Source of the DNA: Alistipes sp.
GTDB lineage: Bacteria; Bacteroidota; Bacteroidia; Bacteroidales; Rikenellaceae
Assembly (NCBI GenBank): GCA_017934845.1
Contig: JAGBIR010000129.1
Location: forward strand, 1-10,832
DNA: 10,832 nucleotides
Direction of reading: 5' to 3'
The translations under genes were made by a program, and so were the position numbers. Shown piece by piece: positions 1 to 10,832 of this stretch (the stretch's first letter is position 1; each line of letters starts with the position of its first letter). The notes beneath the pieces were generated by a model, which searched no databases, had not been told where the DNA came from, and saw only the letters and a program-made list of their open reading frames with translations.

Positions 1-291
1 ATGTATGGTATGTCACCCGGAATGACGTGTCAAATCACTATGCAAAGCGACAAAAATCGATCGCAGAGCGTTGCAATTCCTCTATCTGCCGTCTATGCTC
101 CCGCATCGGGTGGCACCTATGTTTGGGTGGTTGACTCTGCGGGCAGGGTCGAGCGTCGCTCGGTAACGCTTGGAAAGATTTTCGGACGCGATATGGTGAG
201 TGTTACTTCGGGCCTTAAGGCTGGCGAGAAGGTGGTTATTGCCGGTGTATATAAGTTGCGCGAGCACGTTGAGGTAAAAGCTATAAATTAA
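1..291 (+). CDS. RND efflux periplasmic adaptor (HlyD/AcrA-type membrane fusion protein), C-terminal part only
   Basis: This is the last 96 residues or so of a periplasmic adaptor, the subunit that links an inner-membrane RND pump to the outer-membrane channel. The reading frame is open at the left edge, and the ATG at base 1 is probably an internal methionine, because adaptors of this family are usually 330-400 residues long. Visible family features are a 'MSPGMTCQITM' strand near residues 4-14, an 'IPLSAVY' strand near 26-32 followed by 'VWVVDSAGRVERRSVTLG', and a 'V.VTSGLKAGEKVVIAG' block near 67-82. These are typical of the beta-barrel and membrane-proximal domains at the adaptor C-terminus. 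The pump gene starts 6 bp after the stop, so the two are co-transcribed. The signal or lipidation sequence and the hairpin domain lie outside the window. Confidence 0.9.
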   Translation: MYGMSPGMTCQITMQSDKNRSQSVAIPLSAVYAPASGGTYVWVVDSAGRVERRSVTLGKIFGRDMVSVTSGLKAGEKVVIAGVYKLREHVEVKAIN

Positions 292-297
292 CCGACT

Positions 298-3200
298 ATG
301 ACTCTCACCCAGCTATCGCTGCGCAATCGCAGCATTATATGGTTTATCCTCTTCCTGTCGCTTGTTGGAGGCATCTGGGCCTTTGTCAAAATGGGCAAAA
401 AAGAGGATTCGACGTTTGTACTTAAGAGTGCAGTCGTAACGTGCGAGTACGCAGGAGCTTCACCCATCGAGGTCGAGCAACTCATCTCCGAACCCATTGC
501 TCGCGAGCTGCAAACGATGCGCAAAATAAAGAAAATCTCCTCGACATCATATTATGGATTGTCGAAGATTATCGTTGAGCTGGAATCGGGAACACGCGCC
601 AACGAGATACCTCAACTATGGGATGAACTACGACGCAAGGTAATGAATCTCACACCATTACTTCCCGACAAAGCAGGGCCTATTATCGTTAACGACGACT
701 TTAGTGACGTCTATGGATTATACTACGGTCTGACCGCCGACGAAGGTTTTTCGTGGAGCGAAATTCGCGAATGGGCGCAGCGCATAAAGACCGAAATCGT
801 AACAGTCGATGGGGTCGAAAAGGTGGCACTTATGGGCGAGCAGCAACCCGTAGTAAACCTATACATCACGCGTGCAAAACTGACCACATTTGCCATCACA
901 CCCGAGATGATCGTGGCAATGATGAATCAGCAAAATGCTGTTGTAAATAGTGGTGAAGTGGTAGCCGGCGAGATGGTTGTCCGCATACTCGAAACGGGTA
1001 CTTACTCTACAATAGATGATATTGCAAATCAACTTATTATAGCCTCCGATGGCAAGCAGTTCCGACTTGGTGACATAGCTCGCATCGAGATGGATTACCT
1101 CTCGCCGCCCTCGGTTGTGATGCACGTTAATGGTCAGCGCGCAATAGGCATTGGAATCTCATCGGACGCAAAGGCCGATGTAGTTGCAACGGGAGAGCGC
1201 GTAAGAGATATTCTCAATCAATTCAGCGACAAGATGCCGCTCGGAATGGAGATTATCGAGCTATATCCCGAGGATAAGATTGCCCGCCAAGCAAACCTGT
1301 CGTTTATGCTGAATCTGCTGGAGTCGGTAGCGATAGTTATTGCCGTAATTATGCTCGCAATGGGACTCCGCAGCGGCTCATTGATTGGTATGTCGCTCCT
1401 CTTTACCATTGGACTAACGATGCTATGTATGTATATGATGGGGCAGGGAATAAACCGCACATCATTAGCGGGATTTATAATCGCTATGGGAATGTTGGTC
1501 GATAATGCCATAGTTGTAGCCGACAATGCAATGAAATCTATCGCACGCGGTCAAGCACCCGACAAAGCACTTCAAACGGCAGCCGACACTCCGAAATGGG
1601 GTCTATTGGGAGCTACGCTGATAGCGATATTCTCATTTTTGCCGCTATATCTGGCTCCTTCGTCGGTTGCCGAGATAGTAAAACCTCTATTCATCGTCAT
1701 TGCCTTATCACTTATGATTAGCTGGTTTATGGCAATGACACAAGTCCCGTTGTTTGGTATTTGGATGTTACGCGGGACAACAGACAAAAATATCATCAAA
1801 AAAATAGGGTGGTACGACCGTACACTCCGCGCAGCTCTTCAGCACCGATGGATTGTAGCCATTGGAGCGTTGTGTCTGTTTTTGGCATCGATGTGCATAA
1901 TGAGTCTTATGCCGCAGAACTTCTTCCCTCAACTCGATAAACCATATTTTCGCGCCGAGGTGATTCTGCCAGAGGGATATGATATCTCCACGACACAACA
2001 AAATATGGACATTATGGTCGATTGGCTATTACGTCAAGAGCAGGTAAAGCAGGTCTCGACAACCGCAGGTTCCACTCCGCTACGTTACTATTTGGCAAGC
2101 AGTAGCGTGTCACATAGGCCAAATTATGGAAATATACTCGTCGAACTTACCGACAAACGATACTCTCGCACCATTAAAGAGTCGTTCGACAGATTTGTTG
2201 CCGACTCTTGTCCCGATGTTTGGTTGCGCTCGTCACTATTTAAGTTATCACCCGTACCCGATGCAACAATCGAAATAGGATTTGTAGGTAACAATATCGA
2301 CACTCTGCTTAATCTCACTTCGCAGGTCGAGCAGATAATGTGGAACGATGGCCAGGCCGTAAACATTCGCAACAGCTGGGGCAATCGTATTCCCACTTGG
2401 CTGCCCGTCTATTCCCAGACAAAGGGCCAGCGCATAGGCGTAAGTCGCAGCCGCATGGCTGAATGGATAAAGCTGGCTACGCAAGGTTATCCTATGGCTG
2501 AATTTCGACGCGGCGATGAGTTTATTCCCATAGTATTGAAGGATGACGGCATAAACGATTTCGATCTGTCGAATCTGCAATCAATGCCCGTATTCTCGCA
2601 GGGAGGTCGCGTTTTCTCAATCGAGCAGGCGAGCAGTCGCTTCGATTTCGACTTCCGCACCGGTATCGTCGAGCAATATAATCGTCGGCGCGTAATGAAG
2701 GCGCAGTGCGACCCGGCAGCGGGTGTTAATACTCAAAAATTATTCGACAGAGTATTGTCCGAAGTTAAAGCAAAGGTTCACATTCCCGATGGTTACTCAT
2801 TGAAAATCTTCGGAGAACAAGAGTCACAGCGGGAGTCAAACGATGCTCTTGCCGAAAATATGCCACTTGCTATGGTGTTGATTTTCGTGGTGCTACTTTT
2901 GCTCTTTGGCAACTTCCGCGATCCGATAGCCATACTGCTCATGACTCCTCTTATTTTCATCGGAGTGGTTGGAGGATTACTCATAACGGGTAACAACTTC
3001 GATTTTTTCTCGCTCCTCGGCCTGCTCGGATTGGTTGGTATGAATGTGAAAAATGCTGTTATCCTGCTATCGTCAATCGACGAAAAGCGGCTTGCTGGGT
3101 ACACGCCATATTCAGCCATTATCTCGGCAGCGCATGAGCGACTCATACCCGTATGTGTTGCATCAATCACCACCATACTCGCTCTTATTCCACTGCTTTT

Positions 3201-3330
3201 CGACTCGCTGTTTGCGGGTATGGCCGCTACGATTATGGGTGGATTACTTGTTGCAACCATTCTTACAATGATTATTCTGCCAGCGGTTTACGCCATATTC
3301 CACAACATAACCAACAAACATAATCAATAA
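298..3330 (+). CDS. Efflux RND transporter permease (AcrB-like, HAE-type)
   Basis: This 1010-residue inner-membrane pump would use the proton gradient to drive export through the adaptor and TolC-like channel encoded beside it. The length and layout are standard. A first membrane segment lies near residues 13-30, followed by a large periplasmic region. A five-helix cluster spans about 335-500, TM7 lies near 517-540, and a second periplasmic region follows with the usual 'FFPQLDKPYF..EVILPEGYD' opening. A final five-helix cluster spans about 855-1003. The TM4 motif is 'GMLVDNAIVVADN' with D402 and N403. The TM10 motif 'NVKNAVIL' carries K918, and 'ERLIP' carries R948. By eye these align with AcrB D407/D408, K940 and R971, so the second relay Asp is Asn here. 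The AcrB T978 position appears to be Ala (A955). The start at 298 follows the adaptor stop by 6 bp. The substrate is unknown. Confidence 0.95.
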   Translation: MTLTQLSLRNRSIIWFILFLSLVGGIWAFVKMGKKEDSTFVLKSAVVTCEYAGASPIEVEQLISEPIARELQTMRKIKKISSTSYYGLSKIIVELESGTRANEIPQLWDELRRKVMNLTPLLPDKAGPIIVNDDFSDVYGLYYGLTADEGFSWSEIREWAQRIKTEIVTVDGVEKVALMGEQQPVVNLYITRAKLTTFAITPEMIVAMMNQQNAVVNSGEVVAGEMVVRILETGTYSTIDDIANQLIIASDGKQFRLGDIARIEMDYLSPPSVVMHVNGQRAIGIGISSDAKADVVATGERVRDILNQFSDKMPLGMEIIELYPEDKIARQANLSFMLNLLESVAIVIAVIMLAMGLRSGSLIGMSLLFTIGLTMLCMYMMGQGINRTSLAGFIIAMGMLVDNAIVVADNAMKSIARGQAPDKALQTAADTPKWGLLGATLIAIFSFLPLYLAPSSVAEIVKPLFIVIALSLMISWFMAMTQVPLFGIWMLRGTTDKNIIKKIGWYDRTLRAALQHRWIVAIGALCLFLASMCIMSLMPQNFFPQLDKPYFRAEVILPEGYDISTTQQNMDIMVDWLLRQEQVKQVSTTAGSTPLRYYLASSSVSHRPNYGNILVELTDKRYSRTIKESFDRFVADSCPDVWLRSSLFKLSPVPDATIEIGFVGNNIDTLLNLTSQVEQIMWNDGQAVNIRNSWGNRIPTWLPVYSQTKGQRIGVSRSRMAEWIKLATQGYPMAEFRRGDEFIPIVLKDDGINDFDLSNLQSMPVFSQGGRVFSIEQASSRFDFDFRTGIVEQYNRRRVMKAQCDPAAGVNTQKLFDRVLSEVKAKVHIPDGYSLKIFGEQESQRESNDALAENMPLAMVLIFVVLLLLFGNFRDPIAILLMTPLIFIGVVGGLLITGNNFDFFSLLGLLGLVGMNVKNAVILLSSIDEKRLAGYTPYSAIISAAHERLIPVCVASITTILALIPLLFDSLFAGMAATIMGGLLVATILTMIILPAVYAIFHNITNKHNQ

Positions 3331-3334
3331 CTTT

Positions 3335-4576
3335 ATGAGAAAAATAATTCTATTATTCGCCCTCGCCGGCACAACCTCCGTTTCGGCACAAATCTCCCTT
3401 CAAGACTACCGCAAGAGCGTCTATGATGCCAGCACCGAGATTGCCAATGCAATGGTAGAAATCGACAAAGCCGCCGCAACAGCCAAGCGTGAACATACGG
3501 GATTCTTACCATCGGTTGCGGCTAATGGTCAATTCTCGAAGAGTTTCCGACGCGATGACGACAACAAACTTTGGAACTTCACACTCGCACCTCAACTATC
3601 GCAGACGATTTATGCCGGTGGTGCCGTTCGTGCAACGTGGAATCAAGCACAAAGTCAACTTCATAAGTCGCAATACTCAGCCGATGATATAAAACTTACG
3701 ATGCGCTATCAGGCCGATTATGCCTATTGGCATGTGTCGGCATCGCAGCTATATTTAGAGGCGACAAAACGATACGTCGAAATAATCAAATCGCTATACA
3801 ATGTTGTGCAACAGCGTTATAGCGAAGGATATGTAGCAAAAAGCGACCTTTTGCAGGTTGAGGCACGTTTGAGCGATGCTGAATATTCACTTATCACGAC
3901 ACAGCACATCTATGAACAATCGCTACACCAGTTTAACAATCTACGCGGTGAACACGAGCCAACCGAAGTTACTCTGTCACAATCCATTATCGACTCCATA
4001 GCTATGCCACGACGCATAAGCTTTGCCGACATCGTAATGCGCCGTCCCGATGTTCAAGCAGCCGAGTGGGAGGTAAAATCGGCAGAATATGCTACCAGAA
4101 TCACGCGCGCGACATTTAATCCCGCAATAAGTGCTGGTGTCGGTGGTTCGTGGCAGACTTTCTCGCCTAATGTATCGGGGAAAACTTATTGCGATGCGGC
4201 AATAAGCCTAAGTGTCAACATTCCTATCTTCCATTGGGGAGAGCGTCGTCACGCCGTTGCCGCAGCAAAAGCAGACCAGCGCATAGCTTACAACACTTGG
4301 GAGCAGATTCGCGACGACATCGAGCAGGAAGAGGCCGACGGGTGGAGCGCACTTCAGAGCAGCTATTCGCAGATGCAATCTTCGCTGCGAAACCTTGAAA
4401 TTGCGGGCGAGAACCTCGATATTTCAACCTATTCCTACAACGAGGGGCAAGCAACCGTATTAGATGTTTTGCAGGCGCAAATAAGCTGGATACAGATATA
4501 CACCAACGCCATCACCGCACGTTTTAATTATGCGGTGGCAGTGTCGGCGTATATGAAGATTACGGCTACCGATTAA
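3335..4576 (+). CDS. TolC family outer-membrane efflux channel protein
   Basis: This is the outer-membrane factor of the tripartite exporter, expected to trimerise into a channel that spans the outer membrane and reaches into the periplasm. The 413-residue product starts with a clear signal peptide (MRKIILLFALAGTTSVSAQ, cleavage after about residue 18). Long, Ala/Gln-rich alpha-helical stretches follow, as expected for the coiled-coil tunnel. Family signatures include 'RYSEGYVAKSDLLQVEARLSDAEY' near residues 160-185, the 'RRPDVQAAEWEVKSAEYATRITRATFNPAIS' block in the second half, and 'YNEGQATVLDVLQAQISWIQIY' close to the C-terminus. The ATG lies 4 bp after the pump stop, so this is the last gene of the efflux operon. 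Its stop codon overlaps that of the convergent OsmC-type gene. Confidence 0.93.
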   Translation: MRKIILLFALAGTTSVSAQISLQDYRKSVYDASTEIANAMVEIDKAAATAKREHTGFLPSVAANGQFSKSFRRDDDNKLWNFTLAPQLSQTIYAGGAVRATWNQAQSQLHKSQYSADDIKLTMRYQADYAYWHVSASQLYLEATKRYVEIIKSLYNVVQQRYSEGYVAKSDLLQVEARLSDAEYSLITTQHIYEQSLHQFNNLRGEHEPTEVTLSQSIIDSIAMPRRISFADIVMRRPDVQAAEWEVKSAEYATRITRATFNPAISAGVGGSWQTFSPNVSGKTYCDAAISLSVNIPIFHWGERRHAVAAAKADQRIAYNTWEQIRDDIEQEEADGWSALQSSYSQMQSSLRNLEIAGENLDISTYSYNEGQATVLDVLQAQISWIQIYTNAITARFNYAVAVSAYMKITATD

Positions 4577-4594
4577 CCATTCGTGCTATCGGTA
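4567..4594. repeat. Inverted repeat at the convergent gene ends
   Basis: TACCGAT (4567-4573) and ATCGGTA (4588-4594) form a perfect 7-bp inverted repeat with a 14-nt loop. It contains the two overlapping stop codons of the channel gene and the OsmC-type gene. Neither side has a T-tract, so it is not a classical intrinsic terminator. It could be a weak two-way 3'-end hairpin for the converging transcripts, or a chance repeat. Confidence 0.4.
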
Positions 4595-4983
4595 CTAACG
4601 ACAGAAATATCGTGTTCAACGGGGGCTATCTCGCGCAACATTGCAATAACACCACACTTATGTTGCTGTGCCTCTAGAACCGCCTCGCTCACAGCATTTT
4701 GGTCGGCAATCTTACGACATTCCACTTTGTACGAAACGCGAAACTTATCGTATCGGCTCATCGGTTGCAGGGTAGGAGTATTGAGCCAACCCTCAACCGT
4801 AATCTCGAAGTGTTTTGGAACGATATTTTCTTTATCCAACAGACTCATCACCGTATATCCCGTACATTGCGCTGCAGCACAAAGCATTAACGCCTTTGGA
4901 TTAAGATACTCTATTTTTGCCGAATCAACCAGACGGAAACGCCCATTACGCAGTTCGACACTCACTTTTTGTAAATTTTCCAT
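4573..4983 (-). CDS. OsmC/Ohr family protein
   Basis: This small 136-residue protein of the OsmC/Ohr superfamily is probably cytoplasmic. Characterised members are thiol-dependent hydroperoxide reductases; uncharacterised members are common in Bacteroidetes. The key cysteine pair is present: one in the first helix ('LMLCAAAQCTGYTVM', with C40 the likely family cysteine and C35 an extra one), and C110 in 'HKCGVIAML', the equivalent of the second, resolving cysteine. The central 'FEITVEGW...YDKFRVSYKVEC' strands and the C-terminal 'APVEHDI' also fit. There is no signal peptide. The length is close to that of other short family members. The gene reads against the efflux operon, overlapping its last codon by 4 bp, and runs divergently from the TPR gene across 159 bp. 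I saw no perfect TAnnTTTG promoter upstream on this strand. Peroxide reductase activity is inferred from family only. Confidence 0.85.
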   Translation of the reverse strand: MENLQKVSVELRNGRFRLVDSAKIEYLNPKALMLCAAAQCTGYTVMSLLDKENIVPKHFEITVEGWLNTPTLQPMSRYDKFRVSYKVECRKIADQNAVSEAVLEAQQHKCGVIAMLREIAPVEHDISVVSTDSTNG

Positions 4984-5135: not shown

Positions 5136-5142
5136 TTACGAT

Positions 5143-8130
5143 ATGATTAAGAAATCAACCCTTTTGACCTTATGCCTACTCCTGTTAGGAGTAGCGTCGG
5201 TGTCGGCGCAAACTTCATCGCAGGAACGCAGCGTCGAGCGAGGTCTTGCTTTATATGACTTCGGCCATTGGTCGGAGGCTCGTGCCGAACTGCTTTCGGC
5301 GCGTAAAAAGCTATCAGCCGTAAAGGATCGTTTTACCATCGAACGTATCGACTATTATGTTGCTTTGTGCGATGTAGAGCTTAAGCGTCGCGAGGTAGAG
5401 AGCCGCCTTAAGAAGTTTATTGCCGACTACCCGGGTTCGGGCTACTCCAACGACTTGCAGTTTGCTCTGGGTATTCACTACTGCATAGAGGGCGATATGA
5501 TAAAGGCCGAGAAGGAACTTTCGAAGGTAAATTACCGCCAACTCGACCCCGAGAGTCGCAATCGCTACGACCTGCGTATGGGATATATGGCATTTTTGCG
5601 AGGTGATTATCGTGAGGCAAAACGCTATTTCGGCCGCATTACGGGCAAAGGTGATTATGCCGACCACGCGCTATACTACACCTCGTATATGGCCTATACC
5701 GAAGGTGATATTGCCAAGGCGCGCCAAGGATTCACGCAACTAAACGAGCGTGGACAATATAAAGAGTTGATGCCTCACTACCTTATGCAGCTCGATTTCA
5801 AGGAGGGTAATTACCGCGCCGTAGTCGAGGGTGGCGATGCTCTCATAGCGCAATCGGCCGAGGAGGCTGCTCAACAGATTCGTCGTATGATGGCAGAGTC
5901 GTGGTTCCAGCTCTCGAATTACGAGAATGCGGTAAAATATATGTCCGAATATAAGTCGCGAGGAGGCGAGATGGGCCGAGTGGAGAACTATATAATGGGT
6001 TACTCGCTCTATCGTCGTACGCTCTATAACGAGGCACTCAACTATCTGAAGGGTGCTTGCGGAGCCGATGATATGCTTACGCAAAATGCTTCCTACCATT
6101 TGGCTGACTGCTTCCTGCGTGCCGGAGACAAACAAAATGCTATGTACTCGTTCGCTATGGCGTCGAGCGCAGCATTCGATGCTTCGATTGCCGAGGATGC
6201 ACTCTTCAATTATGGTAAATTGCAATACGAACTTGGTGGTGGCCGTTTCAACGAAGCTATAAATGCATTGACCCGCTACATTGAGCGTTATCCCCGCTCG
6301 GAGCGCATCGACGAGGTGCAGACTCTGCTGGTTGCTGCATATTATAATTCTCACAACTATTCAGCGGCTTACCAAGCTATAAAATCTATCCCTTCACCCA
6401 ACAACGATGTTCTGCTGGCTCTTCAAAAGATTGCTTACTTCAATGGCTTGGAGGCTTATAACGAGGGTGAGTTAGCCGAAGCATACGCCTCGCTTACAGA
6501 GTCTTTAGGGGTAGGTTTGAATGCAAAATACAACGCACTCGCTACGTTCTGGCTCGGCGAGATTGCCTATGCCAATGGCGATAGCGACACCGCGCTGCGA
6601 CACTATCGAAACTTTATGGCTCGCGCTCCACGCACGGGCGAGGAGTATGCTATGGCACAATATAATATTGGCTATTGTTTGTTCAACGACAACAACCTCT
6701 CGGCTGCTGGTGAGGCATTCGATCAGTTCCTCGATACAAGAGCTACTCGTGACGCATATCGTGCCGATGCACTGAATCGTCGCGGAGATGTATATTTCTC
6801 GTCGCGCAATTATGGCGATGCCAACCGTTGCTACGAATCGGCCATGGCGATTGGTACGAATGGAAAATATTATGCCGAATATCAGCGCGCTGTAACTTTA
6901 GGTTTGCAGGGAAACACAAGTAATAAAATTAATGCTCTTACGGCCATTATTCGCAATGACAGAGGCGATTACCTCGATGCAGCGACTTACGAGTTGGGCC
7001 GTACATATATTGCCGACGAGCAGTACGACAAGGGCGTAAGTACTTTGGCGCGTTTCGTTGACGAATATCCATCTTCGCCATACAATCTTCAGGCGTTGTC
7101 GGACTTGGCTTTGGCATATATGAATTTGGGCAATAAGGATCAAGCCCTGAAGTATTACGACCGCGTAGTAAAGGCAGCGCCACAATCCTCACAATCGAAG
7201 AGTGCCTTGCAGGGTATTCGAGAGATTTATATCGAGCGAGGCAATGCCGATGCCTATTTCGACTATGCCGAGAAGCATGGTTTAGAGGGTAACGTAAGCA
7301 CGATGACGCGCGATTCGTTATCCTATGCCGCAGCCCAAAAACTCTATCTCGACAACAAGACTTCGGAGGCGACAGCAAGCCTTAAGGGTTACCTTACGAA
7401 CTATCCCAATGGCTATTACCGCAGCGACGCCCTCTTCTACCTGAGCGATTGCTACATCCGCACAAATAAGGAGGGAGAGGCCAATGAACGCCTTTCGGAG
7501 TTGGCTGCAATGGGCCATACACAATACTCGGAGCGAGTTTTGGATAAGTTATCATCAATGTGCTACAAGAGTGAGCGATATGAGCAAGCCGCATCGGCCT
7601 ACCGAGCATTGTATGATGAAACATCCACTTCGGCCACAAAGCAGAATGCCGCTACGGGATATGTATCCTCTACGCTAAAATATGGCAAAGATGCCGACAT
7701 AGTAGCAATGGCCGACGACTTGGAGACAATGACCGAAGTGAGCGATATTGCTCGCCGCAAGGCACGTTATGCAAAAGCCGGCGTGCTGGTGCGTGAAGGT
7801 AAAAATACGGAGGCATTGGAGATTTATAAGATATTGAGTAAGGAGGTAAAGAGTGCCGAAGGTGCCGAAGCGCGCTTCCGCCTTATCGAAGCGGAGTATG
7901 CGGCAGGCAATCTGCAAAAGGCCGAAAATATGGTTTACGAGTTCTCCGACAGCAAAACACCTCAAAATTATTGGTTGGCAAAAGCATTCATCCTGCTGGG
8001 TGATATTTATATGAGTCGCGACGATGCTTTCCAGGCTCGCGCAACTTACCAGAGTGTCGTTGATGGATACTCTCCTGCCGACGATGGCATTGTAGAGGAA
8101 GCCAAGCAGAGAATTGCTAAAATGAATTAG
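5143..8130 (+). CDS. Large secreted tetratricopeptide-repeat (TPR) protein
   Basis: This 995-residue exported protein is made almost entirely of TPR-like helical hairpins, so it is probably a scaffold binding other envelope proteins. No enzymatic motif is visible. It begins with a signal peptide (MIKKSTLLTLCLLLLGVASVSAQ) without a lipobox cysteine, so it should be periplasmic or outer-membrane-associated. Clear repeats occur near residues 316 ('YHLADCFLRAGDKQNAMYSF'), 468, 504, 542, 613, 650, 762, 801, 909 and 946. Several repeats are followed by 'YP' spacers ('RYPRSERIDE', 'EYPSSPYNLQAL', 'NYPNGYYRSDAL') like those of YbgF/BamD-type periplasmic TPR proteins. The frame is open back to 5035, but the promoter at 5077-5108, the AAGGA site and the signal peptide set the start at 5143. 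The beta-barrel gene starts 4 bp after the stop, so the products are likely to function together. The exact role is unknown. Confidence 0.9.
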   Translation: MIKKSTLLTLCLLLLGVASVSAQTSSQERSVERGLALYDFGHWSEARAELLSARKKLSAVKDRFTIERIDYYVALCDVELKRREVESRLKKFIADYPGSGYSNDLQFALGIHYCIEGDMIKAEKELSKVNYRQLDPESRNRYDLRMGYMAFLRGDYREAKRYFGRITGKGDYADHALYYTSYMAYTEGDIAKARQGFTQLNERGQYKELMPHYLMQLDFKEGNYRAVVEGGDALIAQSAEEAAQQIRRMMAESWFQLSNYENAVKYMSEYKSRGGEMGRVENYIMGYSLYRRTLYNEALNYLKGACGADDMLTQNASYHLADCFLRAGDKQNAMYSFAMASSAAFDASIAEDALFNYGKLQYELGGGRFNEAINALTRYIERYPRSERIDEVQTLLVAAYYNSHNYSAAYQAIKSIPSPNNDVLLALQKIAYFNGLEAYNEGELAEAYASLTESLGVGLNAKYNALATFWLGEIAYANGDSDTALRHYRNFMARAPRTGEEYAMAQYNIGYCLFNDNNLSAAGEAFDQFLDTRATRDAYRADALNRRGDVYFSSRNYGDANRCYESAMAIGTNGKYYAEYQRAVTLGLQGNTSNKINALTAIIRNDRGDYLDAATYELGRTYIADEQYDKGVSTLARFVDEYPSSPYNLQALSDLALAYMNLGNKDQALKYYDRVVKAAPQSSQSKSALQGIREIYIERGNADAYFDYAEKHGLEGNVSTMTRDSLSYAAAQKLYLDNKTSEATASLKGYLTNYPNGYYRSDALFYLSDCYIRTNKEGEANERLSELAAMGHTQYSERVLDKLSSMCYKSERYEQAASAYRALYDETSTSATKQNAATGYVSSTLKYGKDADIVAMADDLETMTEVSDIARRKARYAKAGVLVREGKNTEALEIYKILSKEVKSAEGAEARFRLIEAEYAAGNLQKAENMVYEFSDSKTPQNYWLAKAFILLGDIYMSRDDAFQARATYQSVVDGYSPADDGIVEEAKQRIAKMN

Positions 8131-8134
8131 CCCT

Positions 8135-9811
8135 ATGAAGAGATTACTATCAGTTATTGTGATATTGTGCTGTGCCTCAAACCTTATGGCACAGGTTGCA
8201 AAGCAGGTGGAGGTATCGAAAGATTACACACCCACGGTGAGTAGCGCGCAGAAACTCGCCTTGATACCCGATATGACCGATACGGTGAAGATGCAGCCCG
8301 AGATAGACTATACCATCACACCGCGCACCTATGCGACATCGCTGATGACGCCCAACTTCCGACCGGCAACAATCGCCTATTGGGATTATAAGCGTATGCG
8401 CCCGCTCTATGTCAAAGCCGCCTTCGGAGTGCCTCTATCAAGCGAAGCTGATGCCTACCTATCGACCTACAACAAGGATCGCGGCTACGCCATGGTCTAT
8501 GCCAACCATTGGGGCGATTACCGCAATCGCAAAAACCTTAACGATGATAAGGTTACAGAAAATACCTCGCAGATGTCAAATAGGGTAGGTGGCCGCGCAG
8601 GATTGTTCGTCGGTCGTCACGTTGCCGAAATCGACCTCTATGGCGACCATCAGATGCGCCATCGCTATCCCACAACGGGTGCCATGATCGGCTTTGGAGA
8701 GATGCAGGGTAAGATTCGTTTTGGCGATGATTTTACTGACCTTAAGCGTTGGAATTTCAATATTGAGGCGGGCGGAGGTTTCTTCTCGCACCAAAGCCGC
8801 GACTTCGAGCCACAAGAGAAATTTGCTCAATCTAACTTCGACATTAATGCTACGGTCGGTAAGATGATGGGGCGTGGCCATGTACTTAAAATAAACGCCG
8901 GATATTCAGGATATTATGGTGGAAAAATGCTCGATGGATACAAGAATAATTCGCTTACCGTAGGTATGCGCTACGGCTTTAGCGGCCGACGCACAAACTT
9001 CATTATTGGTGCCGATTACTACCACGACAAGGTTGAACTTTCTACCGAATCGCCTCATTATGTGCTGCCATATATGCGCCTTACGTGGAAACGCCACACC
9101 GAACGATTTGTGCCATATATCGAGATCGACAGCGATTTGCGCCGACATAATTTCGCAGCACTCATTTACGAAAATCCATATTTGATTACCTCGCCCAAAC
9201 TCTTGGAAACCATTAAATCACTCCCCAACGAGGTGCAATACAATGGTCGCGTCGGTATAGGTGGCAACCTCGGCAAAGGTGTATTTTCTTATAACCTCTC
9301 AGCCGCACTATCATTTGCTAACGACCACGCATATTGGTATGCCAATGGAGCAAACTATCTGCTCACAACAGCCTATCAGCACTCGCTTCGCATCGATGGA
9401 GGGATGAAGATTCGTCCCGCAGGATGGTTTGAAGCAGAACTTACAGCCGGAGTATATGCTTGGGAGAATTATGGAGATTATTATGCCAATCGTCCAAATT
9501 TCGACGCCGCACTGGATTTGCGCGTAATCACTCACGAATTGAAGATTGATATCAACTTCGGTTATGCCGGCGGTATTAAGTGGATGACTGGCATAGAGAG
9601 TACCAACGAAAACGGCGAGATAACCACAAGCTATGGCTACGTCAAGACCAACAACACTTTCAGTCTCGGATTGAGTGCCGAGTGGAGAGTCTGCGAACGT
9701 ATCGCGGTATTTGCCGAAGGCCGCAACCTTACAGGCAGCCGAATTTACGAATGGCTGAATTACTACCAAAACACCCCTCAAGGCCTCCTCGGCGTAAAAA
9801 TGACATTCTAA
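8135..9811 (+). CDS. Outer-membrane beta-barrel protein, TonB-dependent-receptor-like barrel without a plug
   Basis: This 558-residue outer-membrane protein has a signal peptide (MKRLLSVIVILCCASNLMAQ) and then a proline-rich segment at about 21-75. That segment includes 'VEVSKDYTPTV' and 'PDMTDTVKMQPEIDYTI'. From about residue 85 the sequence alternates aromatic and polar residues as in transmembrane beta-strands, and it ends 'LLGVKMTF' with a C-terminal phenylalanine typical of barrels recognised by the BAM machinery. The last 45 residues ('ERIAVFAEGRNLTGSRIYEW...') resemble the end of TonB-dependent receptor barrels. No plug domain, carboxypeptidase-like N-terminal domain or clear TonB box is present, and the length is well below the 700-1000 residues of full receptors. 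It lies 4 bp after the TPR gene and is followed by a terminator, so it is the second and last gene of that operon. The ligand or partner is unknown. Confidence 0.82.
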   Translation: MKRLLSVIVILCCASNLMAQVAKQVEVSKDYTPTVSSAQKLALIPDMTDTVKMQPEIDYTITPRTYATSLMTPNFRPATIAYWDYKRMRPLYVKAAFGVPLSSEADAYLSTYNKDRGYAMVYANHWGDYRNRKNLNDDKVTENTSQMSNRVGGRAGLFVGRHVAEIDLYGDHQMRHRYPTTGAMIGFGEMQGKIRFGDDFTDLKRWNFNIEAGGGFFSHQSRDFEPQEKFAQSNFDINATVGKMMGRGHVLKINAGYSGYYGGKMLDGYKNNSLTVGMRYGFSGRRTNFIIGADYYHDKVELSTESPHYVLPYMRLTWKRHTERFVPYIEIDSDLRRHNFAALIYENPYLITSPKLLETIKSLPNEVQYNGRVGIGGNLGKGVFSYNLSAALSFANDHAYWYANGANYLLTTAYQHSLRIDGGMKIRPAGWFEAELTAGVYAWENYGDYYANRPNFDAALDLRVITHELKIDINFGYAGGIKWMTGIESTNENGEITTSYGYVKTNNTFSLGLSAEWRVCERIAVFAEGRNLTGSRIYEWLNYYQNTPQGLLGVKMTF

Positions 9812-9814
9812 ACT

Positions 9815-9850
9815 AAAAGCTGTTAGCCACCTCAACGACTAACAGCTTTT
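9815..9850 (+). terminator. Intrinsic terminator after the TPR/barrel operon
   Basis: AAAAGCTGTTAG (9815-9826) and CTAACAGCTTTT (9839-9850) form a perfect 12-bp stem with a 12-nt loop, followed by TCTTTT. It begins 3 bp after the barrel stop codon. The A-run at its left side could also let it stop transcription coming from the other direction. Confidence 0.88.
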
Positions 9851-9853
9851 TCT

Positions 9854-9884
9854 TTTGCTATTTAGCCATTTTTTCGTAGATTTG
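9854..9884 (+). promoter_or_regulatory. Bacteroidetes-type promoter for the caspase-like lipoprotein gene
   Basis: TTTG (9854-9857) and TAGATTTG (9877-9884) match the -33 and -7 consensus elements, with 19 nt between them. The expected start near 9890 leaves a leader of about 24 nt before the ATG at 9914, with no Shine-Dalgarno match, which is common in this phylum. The -33 box sits just after the preceding terminator, so this gene is transcribed independently. Confidence 0.72.
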
Positions 9885-9913: not shown

Positions 9914-10832
9914 ATGAACAAAATCGGCATGCGTTACCTTGCGTTGGGTAATATATTTAGTCACTTTGCCAAGTCATTGGCAATTCTGTTTATGGTCGCA
10001 TTTATTGGCTGTACAAGCAGCTCAACCGACGACTCAGACGATAACACTCCGCCACAGGAGCAACCATCCAACCCCGACGATGGGGACGACAATAGTGGCG
10101 GTGGTAGCGGCTCTTCGGACAACAACGAGCAAATCTCAATGGAAGAATTGGTCGCCAATGTCGAGAGTGCGCAGGAGGTTATTGACCCGCTGTTTGAGCA
10201 GTGCGAAACTATCGACGACCTCGCCAAGCACCTTGACGAAATCAAGGCAATGGAGTGCGTATCAAACGCATGGATTTATGAAGATGCTTTATATACTATT
10301 GTAGAAGGTGGTTTCCAAATGGGCTGGTCTTACCATACAATCCCAACACCACAAGATAATACTACCTCTGCTAACAATAACTTATATTCGCCATCCGATT
10401 ATATTACACGTGCATCGAATACTGAACAAAGAGACGAACATACTTTCTTAAAAGGCAATAATGTCTGTATAATAAATCAAATATTTAATGACTCAGATTG
10501 GGCATATATTAGAACTTCATTTTCTAATCTTGAGCAAAATTTCACTGATGCAGAATTTGCCGTAAGACACTTAAGAGGAACAGGCACCACCAGCTTTATA
10601 CTCAATCAATTATCCAATTATAATATTATATTTTGGGCTACTCATGGTTGCTACGATGGAGATAATCATTGGTTTACAACTGAATCTATATCAACATCAA
10701 AGGATACTGTGTTTGATTATTTAGAAAGTTGGATTAAATATGGTTTTTTAGATGCTGCTATGTATTTAAGTACAACCTATGACGGAAAACACATTATGAT
10801 TGCAGATGAGCTAATCGACAATCAAATGGGGA
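9914..10832 (+). CDS. Lipoprotein with a predicted clan CD (caspase/CHAT/gingipain-like) cysteine peptidase domain, 3' end missing
   Basis: The frame is open from 9914 to the right edge (306 codons, no stop). An N-terminal hydrophobic helix ends in 'VAFIGC', with C33 the likely lipidated cysteine, although Phe at -3 is not the usual residue. Next come 'TSSSTDDSDD', resembling Bacteroidetes lipoprotein surface-export signals, and a Pro/Asp/Gly/Ser linker to about residue 72. Residues 74-140 form a small helical/strand module ('LAKHLDEIKAMECVSNAWIYEDALYTIV'). The final part fits the first half of a caspase-type fold: a strand 'NNVCIINQIF' near 182-191, a helix, then the hydrophobic strand 'NIIFWATHG' ending in H244-G245, the catalytic His-Gly pattern of clan CD. 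The catalytic Cys, normally after the next strand, would lie beyond the window; C246 beside the His-Gly is not that residue. An alternative start is Met6 (9929). Peptidase activity is inferred, and a CHAT-like or inactive member is also possible. Confidence 0.65.
   Translation, partial: MNKIGMRYLALGNIFSHFAKSLAILFMVAFIGCTSSSTDDSDDNTPPQEQPSNPDDGDDNSGGGSGSSDNNEQISMEELVANVESAQEVIDPLFEQCETIDDLAKHLDEIKAMECVSNAWIYEDALYTIVEGGFQMGWSYHTIPTPQDNTTSANNNLYSPSDYITRASNTEQRDEHTFLKGNNVCIINQIFNDSDWAYIRTSFSNLEQNFTDAEFAVRHLRGTGTTSFILNQLSNYNIIFWATHGCYDGDNHWFTTESISTSKDTVFDYLESWIKYGFLDAAMYLSTTYDGKHIMIADELIDNQMG

Follow-up and report, generated by a model that had tools for sequence, protein, structure and literature searches.

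The window analysed here is the whole of contig JAGBIR010000129.1 (10,832 nt) from the Alistipes sp. assembly GCA_017934845.1, and its last gene, an open reading frame (ORF) at 9914-10831 on the + strand, is the subject of this report. A first-pass annotation had interpreted it as a probable surface-exposed lipoprotein with a caspase- or CHAT-like domain, from a lipobox-like 'FIGC' and a 'WATHG' motif. Both motifs are present (residues 30-33 and 241-245, the latter with His244), and the caspase/CHAT-like interpretation was supported, with the tests run in relatives because the gene is cut short by the contig end; nothing can be read 3' of it. The protein is laid out as follows.

9914..10831 (+): gene with ATG start and 306 codons, without a stop, running off the contig end
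9914..10012 (+): predicted lipoprotein signal peptide with lipobox FIGC (residues 30-33); lipid-bearing Cys33 at 10010-10012
10007..10264 (+): block of residues 32-117, with 85 of 86 residues identical to the relative P0001 and diverged flanks on both sides
10013..10138 (+): acidic, Gly/Ser-rich linker, read from the sequence; much of it at low predicted local distance difference test (pLDDT) values
10139..10333 (+): conserved N-terminal module (residues 76-140), helices followed by three strands, from alignment, structure models and profile comparison
10454..10831 (+): start of the CHAT-like/caspase-like domain (residues 181-306), truncated ahead of its Cys
10643..10645 (+): codon for His244 of WATHG, the putative catalytic residue, from alignment

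Gene family, export signal and catalytic residues

As a motif alone would be weak evidence, it is the homologues that make the observation more than chance and, judged from sequence, the ORF is a genuine gene belonging to a genuine family. Of 5.8 billion proteins searched, one was a relative at E ≤0.001 (P0001, E 1e-74). Among 101 genomes of the genus, G035 carries an open frame of approximately 1,210 residues (E 4e-18), while eight of the ten genus matches (E 4e-5 to 7e-4, over N-terminal stretches) were not counted as relatives. Profile and region searches added 5 and 20 further proteins, and three genomic relatives were found in the order (L014-L016). Two named metagenome-assembled genomes carry relatives, Reindeer_1_mag_244 (the same protein as L014) and RUG12310. 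Profile-profile comparison of the window and P0001 with 22 relatives gave E 2.7e-24 and a score of 165.8, compared to at most 23.0 in 60 column shuffles. Overall, the features first noticed were thus confirmed via the ORF, the motifs and the homologues.

In the 25-row alignment A3 the His is kept in every row (THG in 23, AHG in two), and all 22 rows that reach the position show a Cys ending a later hydrophobic strand, as had been predicted for the strand after the His-Gly strand; the other three rows, including the window, stop short of it. The residue preceding this Cys is Ala or Ser in 21 of the 22 rows and Val in P0004. Since the His-to-Cys spacing is 72-94 residues and the window stops 62 residues after His244, its Cys is expected approximately 10-32 residues past the contig end, closer than the 40-80 residues originally guessed. 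A His-Cys dyad is described as conserved in clan CD in a passage of PMC12445089, where a Gly precedes the His, or follows it in YabG; according to part of PMC4357240, the His and Cys of the clan stand at the ends of neighbouring strands. This arrangement, His then Cys at neighbouring strand ends, was found in the relatives, with the window showing the His only. One relative, L016 (523-2541 on the - strand; G422:C1), has a single in-frame TAG soon after the putative active-site Cys, which may reflect a broken gene, a sequencing error or recoding.

The lipobox column holds a Cys in 23 of 25 alignment rows, the remaining two being without N-terminus, and a loose lipobox pattern was present in 19 of 27 sequences. 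Of the 23 rows that show the Cys, 12 match C-x-K-(D/E)2, given in a passage of PMC5080379 as the optimal surface-export signal in Capnocytophaga. In the window, which reads CTSSSTDDSDD, the acidic stretch noticed at first pass is present but begins at +6 and not directly after the Cys. As its acidic residues come later, a position at the cell surface, outside on the outer membrane, is no more than likely for the window's protein. The C-terminal parts differ among the relatives: the G035 protein and P0004 carry BspA-type leucine-rich repeats, L015 has FISUMP behind the domain, the second piece of L016 gives a weak Ig-like match below threshold, and members of the P0007-P0018 group share one more conserved C-terminal part.

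Close to the window's genome the family is rare: with a one-sequence query 2 of 268 genomes of the window's taxonomic family matched, the window's own included. In the order, 15 of 393 matched profile A2. By inspection, these 15 were four clear relatives (again with the window's genome), four distant lipoproteins, three CHAT proteins and four weak matches (L030-L033) not counted as relatives. The four distant lipoproteins (L023:340-2622, L024:526-2607 and L026:514-2646, all +, and L027:772-2874, -) have a THG strand and a later strand ending in (G/N)SC, give no Pfam match over the catalytic part, and are probably another uncatalogued group of caspase-like lipoproteins in Bacteroidales. The Pfam and NCBIfam copies used contained no model for the window's ORF or for the domain in the relatives scanned. 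Solved structures gave no match to the ORF by sequence search, and the family profile reached only 3b83_A (TEN-D3) among them, at E 0.12 and behind the catalytic domain. No match was found in plasmids and phages by tblastn with the ORF, and no relative in the viral contigs searched with P0001. Two matches to PADLOC defence families, one member each (E 0.04 and 0.78), were taken as chance. Among the papers listed by full-text searches of a library with few subscription journals, no title or abstract opening describes the family.

Upstream of the gene, two sites were detected.

9810..9855 (+): terminator-like inverted repeat with 17-nt arms, 88% complementary, a 12-nt loop and a T-rich 3' side, between the stop of the upstream gene and the lipoprotein gene
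9854..9884 (+): Bacteroidetes-type promoter-like site, TTTG-N19-TAGATTTG

The promoter consensus was taken from a passage of PMC7366714; one match was observed compared to 0.10 expected per window, and 18 of 200 shuffles had at least one. A general scan for sigma-70 promoters and terminators reported neither site, its terminator rule accepting loops of 3-8 nt only. The initial description as a stand-alone gene therefore holds on the left, the side that the contig covers. A family-profile search of the same assembly (70% complete) found no second piece of the gene. The G+C fraction of the window falls from 0.50 in 9914-10264 to 0.335 after it. Further to the left, positions 1-4983 hold what by eye is a resistance-nodulation-division (RND) efflux operon (adaptor end 1-291, pump 298-3330, TolC-like channel 3335-4576) and a small OsmC-like protein at 4573-4983 on the - strand (Pfam E 4.6e-11), convergent to the operon and overlapping the channel gene by 4 bases at its end. 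Positions 5140-9811 encode a TPR protein of approximately 995 residues and then a 558-residue protein, by eye an outer-membrane beta-barrel, which had no significant Pfam match.

Fold and relation to CHAT

The predicted structure of the relative P0022 contains a caspase-like alpha/beta domain with the fold of clan CD, as anticipated for the window's protein. Foldseek with the window's own model found nothing at E 0.001. With P0022, five matches at E ≤0.001 were obtained (DdvA twice, POMGNT2 twice and a beta-glucosidase), followed by Csx29 (1.1e-3) and gingipain K (1.7e-3). Entries of C11 and C25 are absent among the 50 structural matches listed for P0022, which excludes neither family.

Comparison of 22 family domains with 15 CHAT domains of the same order by hhalign gave E 1.2e-4 and a score of 40.3 over 174 columns, with controls reaching at most 25.0 (100 column shuffles of CHAT) and 13.6 (reversed profile). 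Clan CD members often read His-Gly and Ala-Cys, and both pairs were in register with CHAT in this alignment. The window and P0001 alone matched CHAT with E 2e-4 over 48 columns. Independently, profile A2, which contains no CHAT sequence, picked the Pfam CHAT proteins L025, L028 and L029 in other genomes (E 2.7e-7, 5.7e-5 and 1.0e-4, respectively), two of which carry TPR repeats. None of the 18 members of A5 rose above the Pfam gathering cut-off for CHAT (best E 0.18, in 2 of the 18), nor did any sequence in the other scans; as the curated cut-off is not reached, we call the domain CHAT-like and a clan CD domain, not a member of Pfam CHAT.

Among the families named at first pass, CHAT is the nearest; C11 and C25 showed no profile similarity in a comparison of low power. 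The C25 profile gave E 0.2 over 24 columns outside the catalytic part and C11 gave E 0.23; CHAT itself finds neither of them (E 0.46 for C25, 0.39 for C11), so this result excludes neither. The window's own genome (70% complete) has a Peptidase_C11, clostripain-type match at L075:1501-1872 (+; G000:C29) and no match to CHAT or C25.

Variation of the catalytic domain between steadier flanks

Segment identities were compared among 13 related proteins (12 P proteins and L014); 26 of the 78 pairs are listed, and several of these dip in the catalytic part. Given in the order N-terminal module, catalytic segments, C-terminal 192 positions, the identities were 71%, 39-52% and 99% in P0014/P0016; 92%, 49-74% and 98% in P0012/P0018; 95%, 41-62% and 88% in P0009/P0014; and 88%, 43-62% and 93% in P0007/L014. 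Sliding identity windows showed steep edges, with breakpoints seen at the protein level only. In another subgroup, P0020/P0025 share 93% of the first segment, 76% of the last and 55% of the module, with 28-45% between; in the leucine-rich group, identity between P0003 and P0004 drops from 63% in the N-terminal 285 positions to 37-47% across the module and the catalytic part. A similar break separates the window from P0001, where the nearly identical block of residues 32-117 is followed by 42% and then 27% identity, and preceded by 39% in residues 1-31.

Trees (LG+G4) of the three parts were used for seven groups, chosen after the segment identities had been seen. The C-terminal tree joined P0014 and P0016 (100/99.9) and rejected P0014 with P0011 and P0013 (p 7e-7); in the catalytic tree the latter three grouped together (100/99.9) and P0014 with P0016 was rejected (p 0.0003). 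P0009 with P0014, rejected by both trees (p 2e-47 and 1.6e-10), came nearest at the N-terminus (68/86). P0010 and L014 were united in the catalytic tree (100/100) and rejected at the C-terminus (p 0.026).

From these data, the simplest reading of the mosaic appears to be replacement of the protease domain by recombination between genomes. We tentatively propose, at little short of an even chance, a polymorphic surface peptidase. On a conserved chassis, anchored by a lipid and made up of signal peptide, export signal, N-terminal module and C-terminal domains, the whole catalytic domain would be swapped as a cassette by recombination among strains or species of Bacteroidales from gut and rumen; the His-Cys pair would stay while most of its surroundings change, which would renew cleavage specificity, inhibitor sensitivity or antigenicity.

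Several observations weigh against such an exchange. Of six groups tested on the N-terminal tree, none was rejected (p 0.057 to 0.275). P0007/P0008 and P0011/P0013 show no catalytic dip among the pairs listed, and P0007/P0008, joined by the catalytic tree (100/100), are not rejected at the C-terminus (p 0.079). For P0012 and P0018 fast divergence would suffice, as the catalytic tree does not reject their pairing (p 0.258). In addition, several members lie on contigs of 3-5 kb, which may be chimeric. It is accordingly quite possible, though not what we favour, that the mosaic alone has another origin, either in chimeric metagenome assembly at similar flanks or in fast divergence of the domain under selection. 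Chimeric assembly, the main alternative, is partly countered by P0014 (three contigs, two sources) and P0016 (longest contig 115 kb), for which an artefact is less likely, and by P0018 (two contigs, two sources), to which the L018 protein, on a 123-kb contig, is almost identical. Fast divergence alone does not give the conflict around P0014, where each of the two trees, catalytic and C-terminal, rejects the grouping made by the other.

Switching within a single genome, by a phase-variable locus with silent cassettes, was also considered and disfavoured: neither the window's assembly (70% complete) nor G621 (90% complete, one match), the one genome with a match among 15 of its family, yielded a second or silent copy. 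As these two incomplete assemblies show no second copies, cassette exchange between genomes is preferred over switching within one.

Proposed function and comparison with known systems

Therefore, from the family, the conservation of the His-Cys pair, the caspase-like fold in a relative, the relation to CHAT and the lipoprotein-type N-terminal Cys, all of which were computed, the window most likely encodes the start of a Sec-exported, probably surface-located lipoprotein that carries a CHAT-like clan CD cysteine peptidase domain behind an acidic linker and an N-terminal module. From its sequence and known pathways, the protein would be exported by Sec, lipidated at Cys33 and transferred to the cell surface; His244 and the Cys expected past the contig end would then catalyse cleavage in the manner of a caspase-type His-Cys peptidase, acting on proteins that meet the cell. 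A surface location in the window's species, proteolytic activity and action on proteins of a host, a competitor or a neighbouring cell surface are what we infer from this. The variable C-terminal parts of the relatives (BspA-type repeats, FISUMP, Ig/Fn3-like) may hold the target or choose the partner.

It is also conceivable, if unlikely, that the domain is mainly self-cleaving and matures or releases attached surface parts instead of attacking foreign proteins. The domain of relatives lies inside the protein, ahead of adhesin-like or Ig-like parts, and a passage of PMC3482391 proposes autoprocessing for caspase-like domains located within surface proteins and polymorphic toxins. However, in P0019, P0020, P0022 and P0024-P0026 little protein follows the domain, sandwich-type strands being seen there in the P0022 model alone, and in several pairs the catalytic domain is the most variable part, which is unexpected for a module cutting only its own conserved flanks. 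Adhesin-like C-terminal parts would likewise suit a pseudo-enzyme, with the fold kept as a binding module on a surface adhesin, but the retention of His (25/25) and Cys (22/22) in an otherwise widely varying domain makes this improbable.

A role as protease effector in type III CRISPR, comparable to that of TPR-CHAT/Csx29 with Cas7-11, would draw on a fold family that takes in Csx29 and on the G035 homologue, the only one with cas neighbours, approximately 240 bp upstream of type III-A genes; we regard it as very improbable because the protein, with a lipoprotein Cys in 23 of 25 rows, is exported, because these neighbours are Csm genes and not the Cas7-11 that marks type III-E Craspase, and because no cas genes were recognised by eye in the window or the 18-kb loci L017 and L018. 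By Pfam, the G035 region (L011:8330-18619; G035:C38) holds Cas10/Csm1, Csm2, two RAMP proteins and Csm4, with Cas6b on the other strand.

With the proposed peptidase, the caspase superfamily in Bacteroidales would gain a CHAT-like branch that is lipid-anchored and has no model in the copies of Pfam and NCBIfam used. If cassette exchange is true, these genes form a natural library of surface peptidases on one chassis, and the driver could be tested directly among prey proteins, inhibitors, phages and immunity. With CHAT (PF12770; SAVED-CHAT, TPR-CHAT/Csx29) the domain shares the caspase-like fold and His-Gly and Ala-Cys at matching positions, whereas here it is part of an exported lipoprotein with its own N-terminal module and variable, surface-type C-terminal parts. 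Separase (C50) and caspase (C14) domains show at most 12-14% identity in the aligned part and no sequence match in our PDB search, and here the domain sits in a bacterial exported lipoprotein. Gingipains (C25) and clostripains (C11) are likewise clan CD and exported enzymes of Bacteroidales relatives, and a passage of PMC3482391 lists host-cleaving gingipains and surface-processing clostripains among the exported members of the superfamily; C25, however, is much more frequent in the order, being present in 73 of 80 genomes. Polymorphic toxins and the lipobox-APD effectors of Amoebophilus, as described in part of PMC3482391, also combine a conserved anchor part with a variable active part, and the APD1/APD2 proteins have a lipobox as well. 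In contrast to these, the variable part here is central and stays within one family, and in the P0007-P0018 group it is followed by a conserved C-terminal part.
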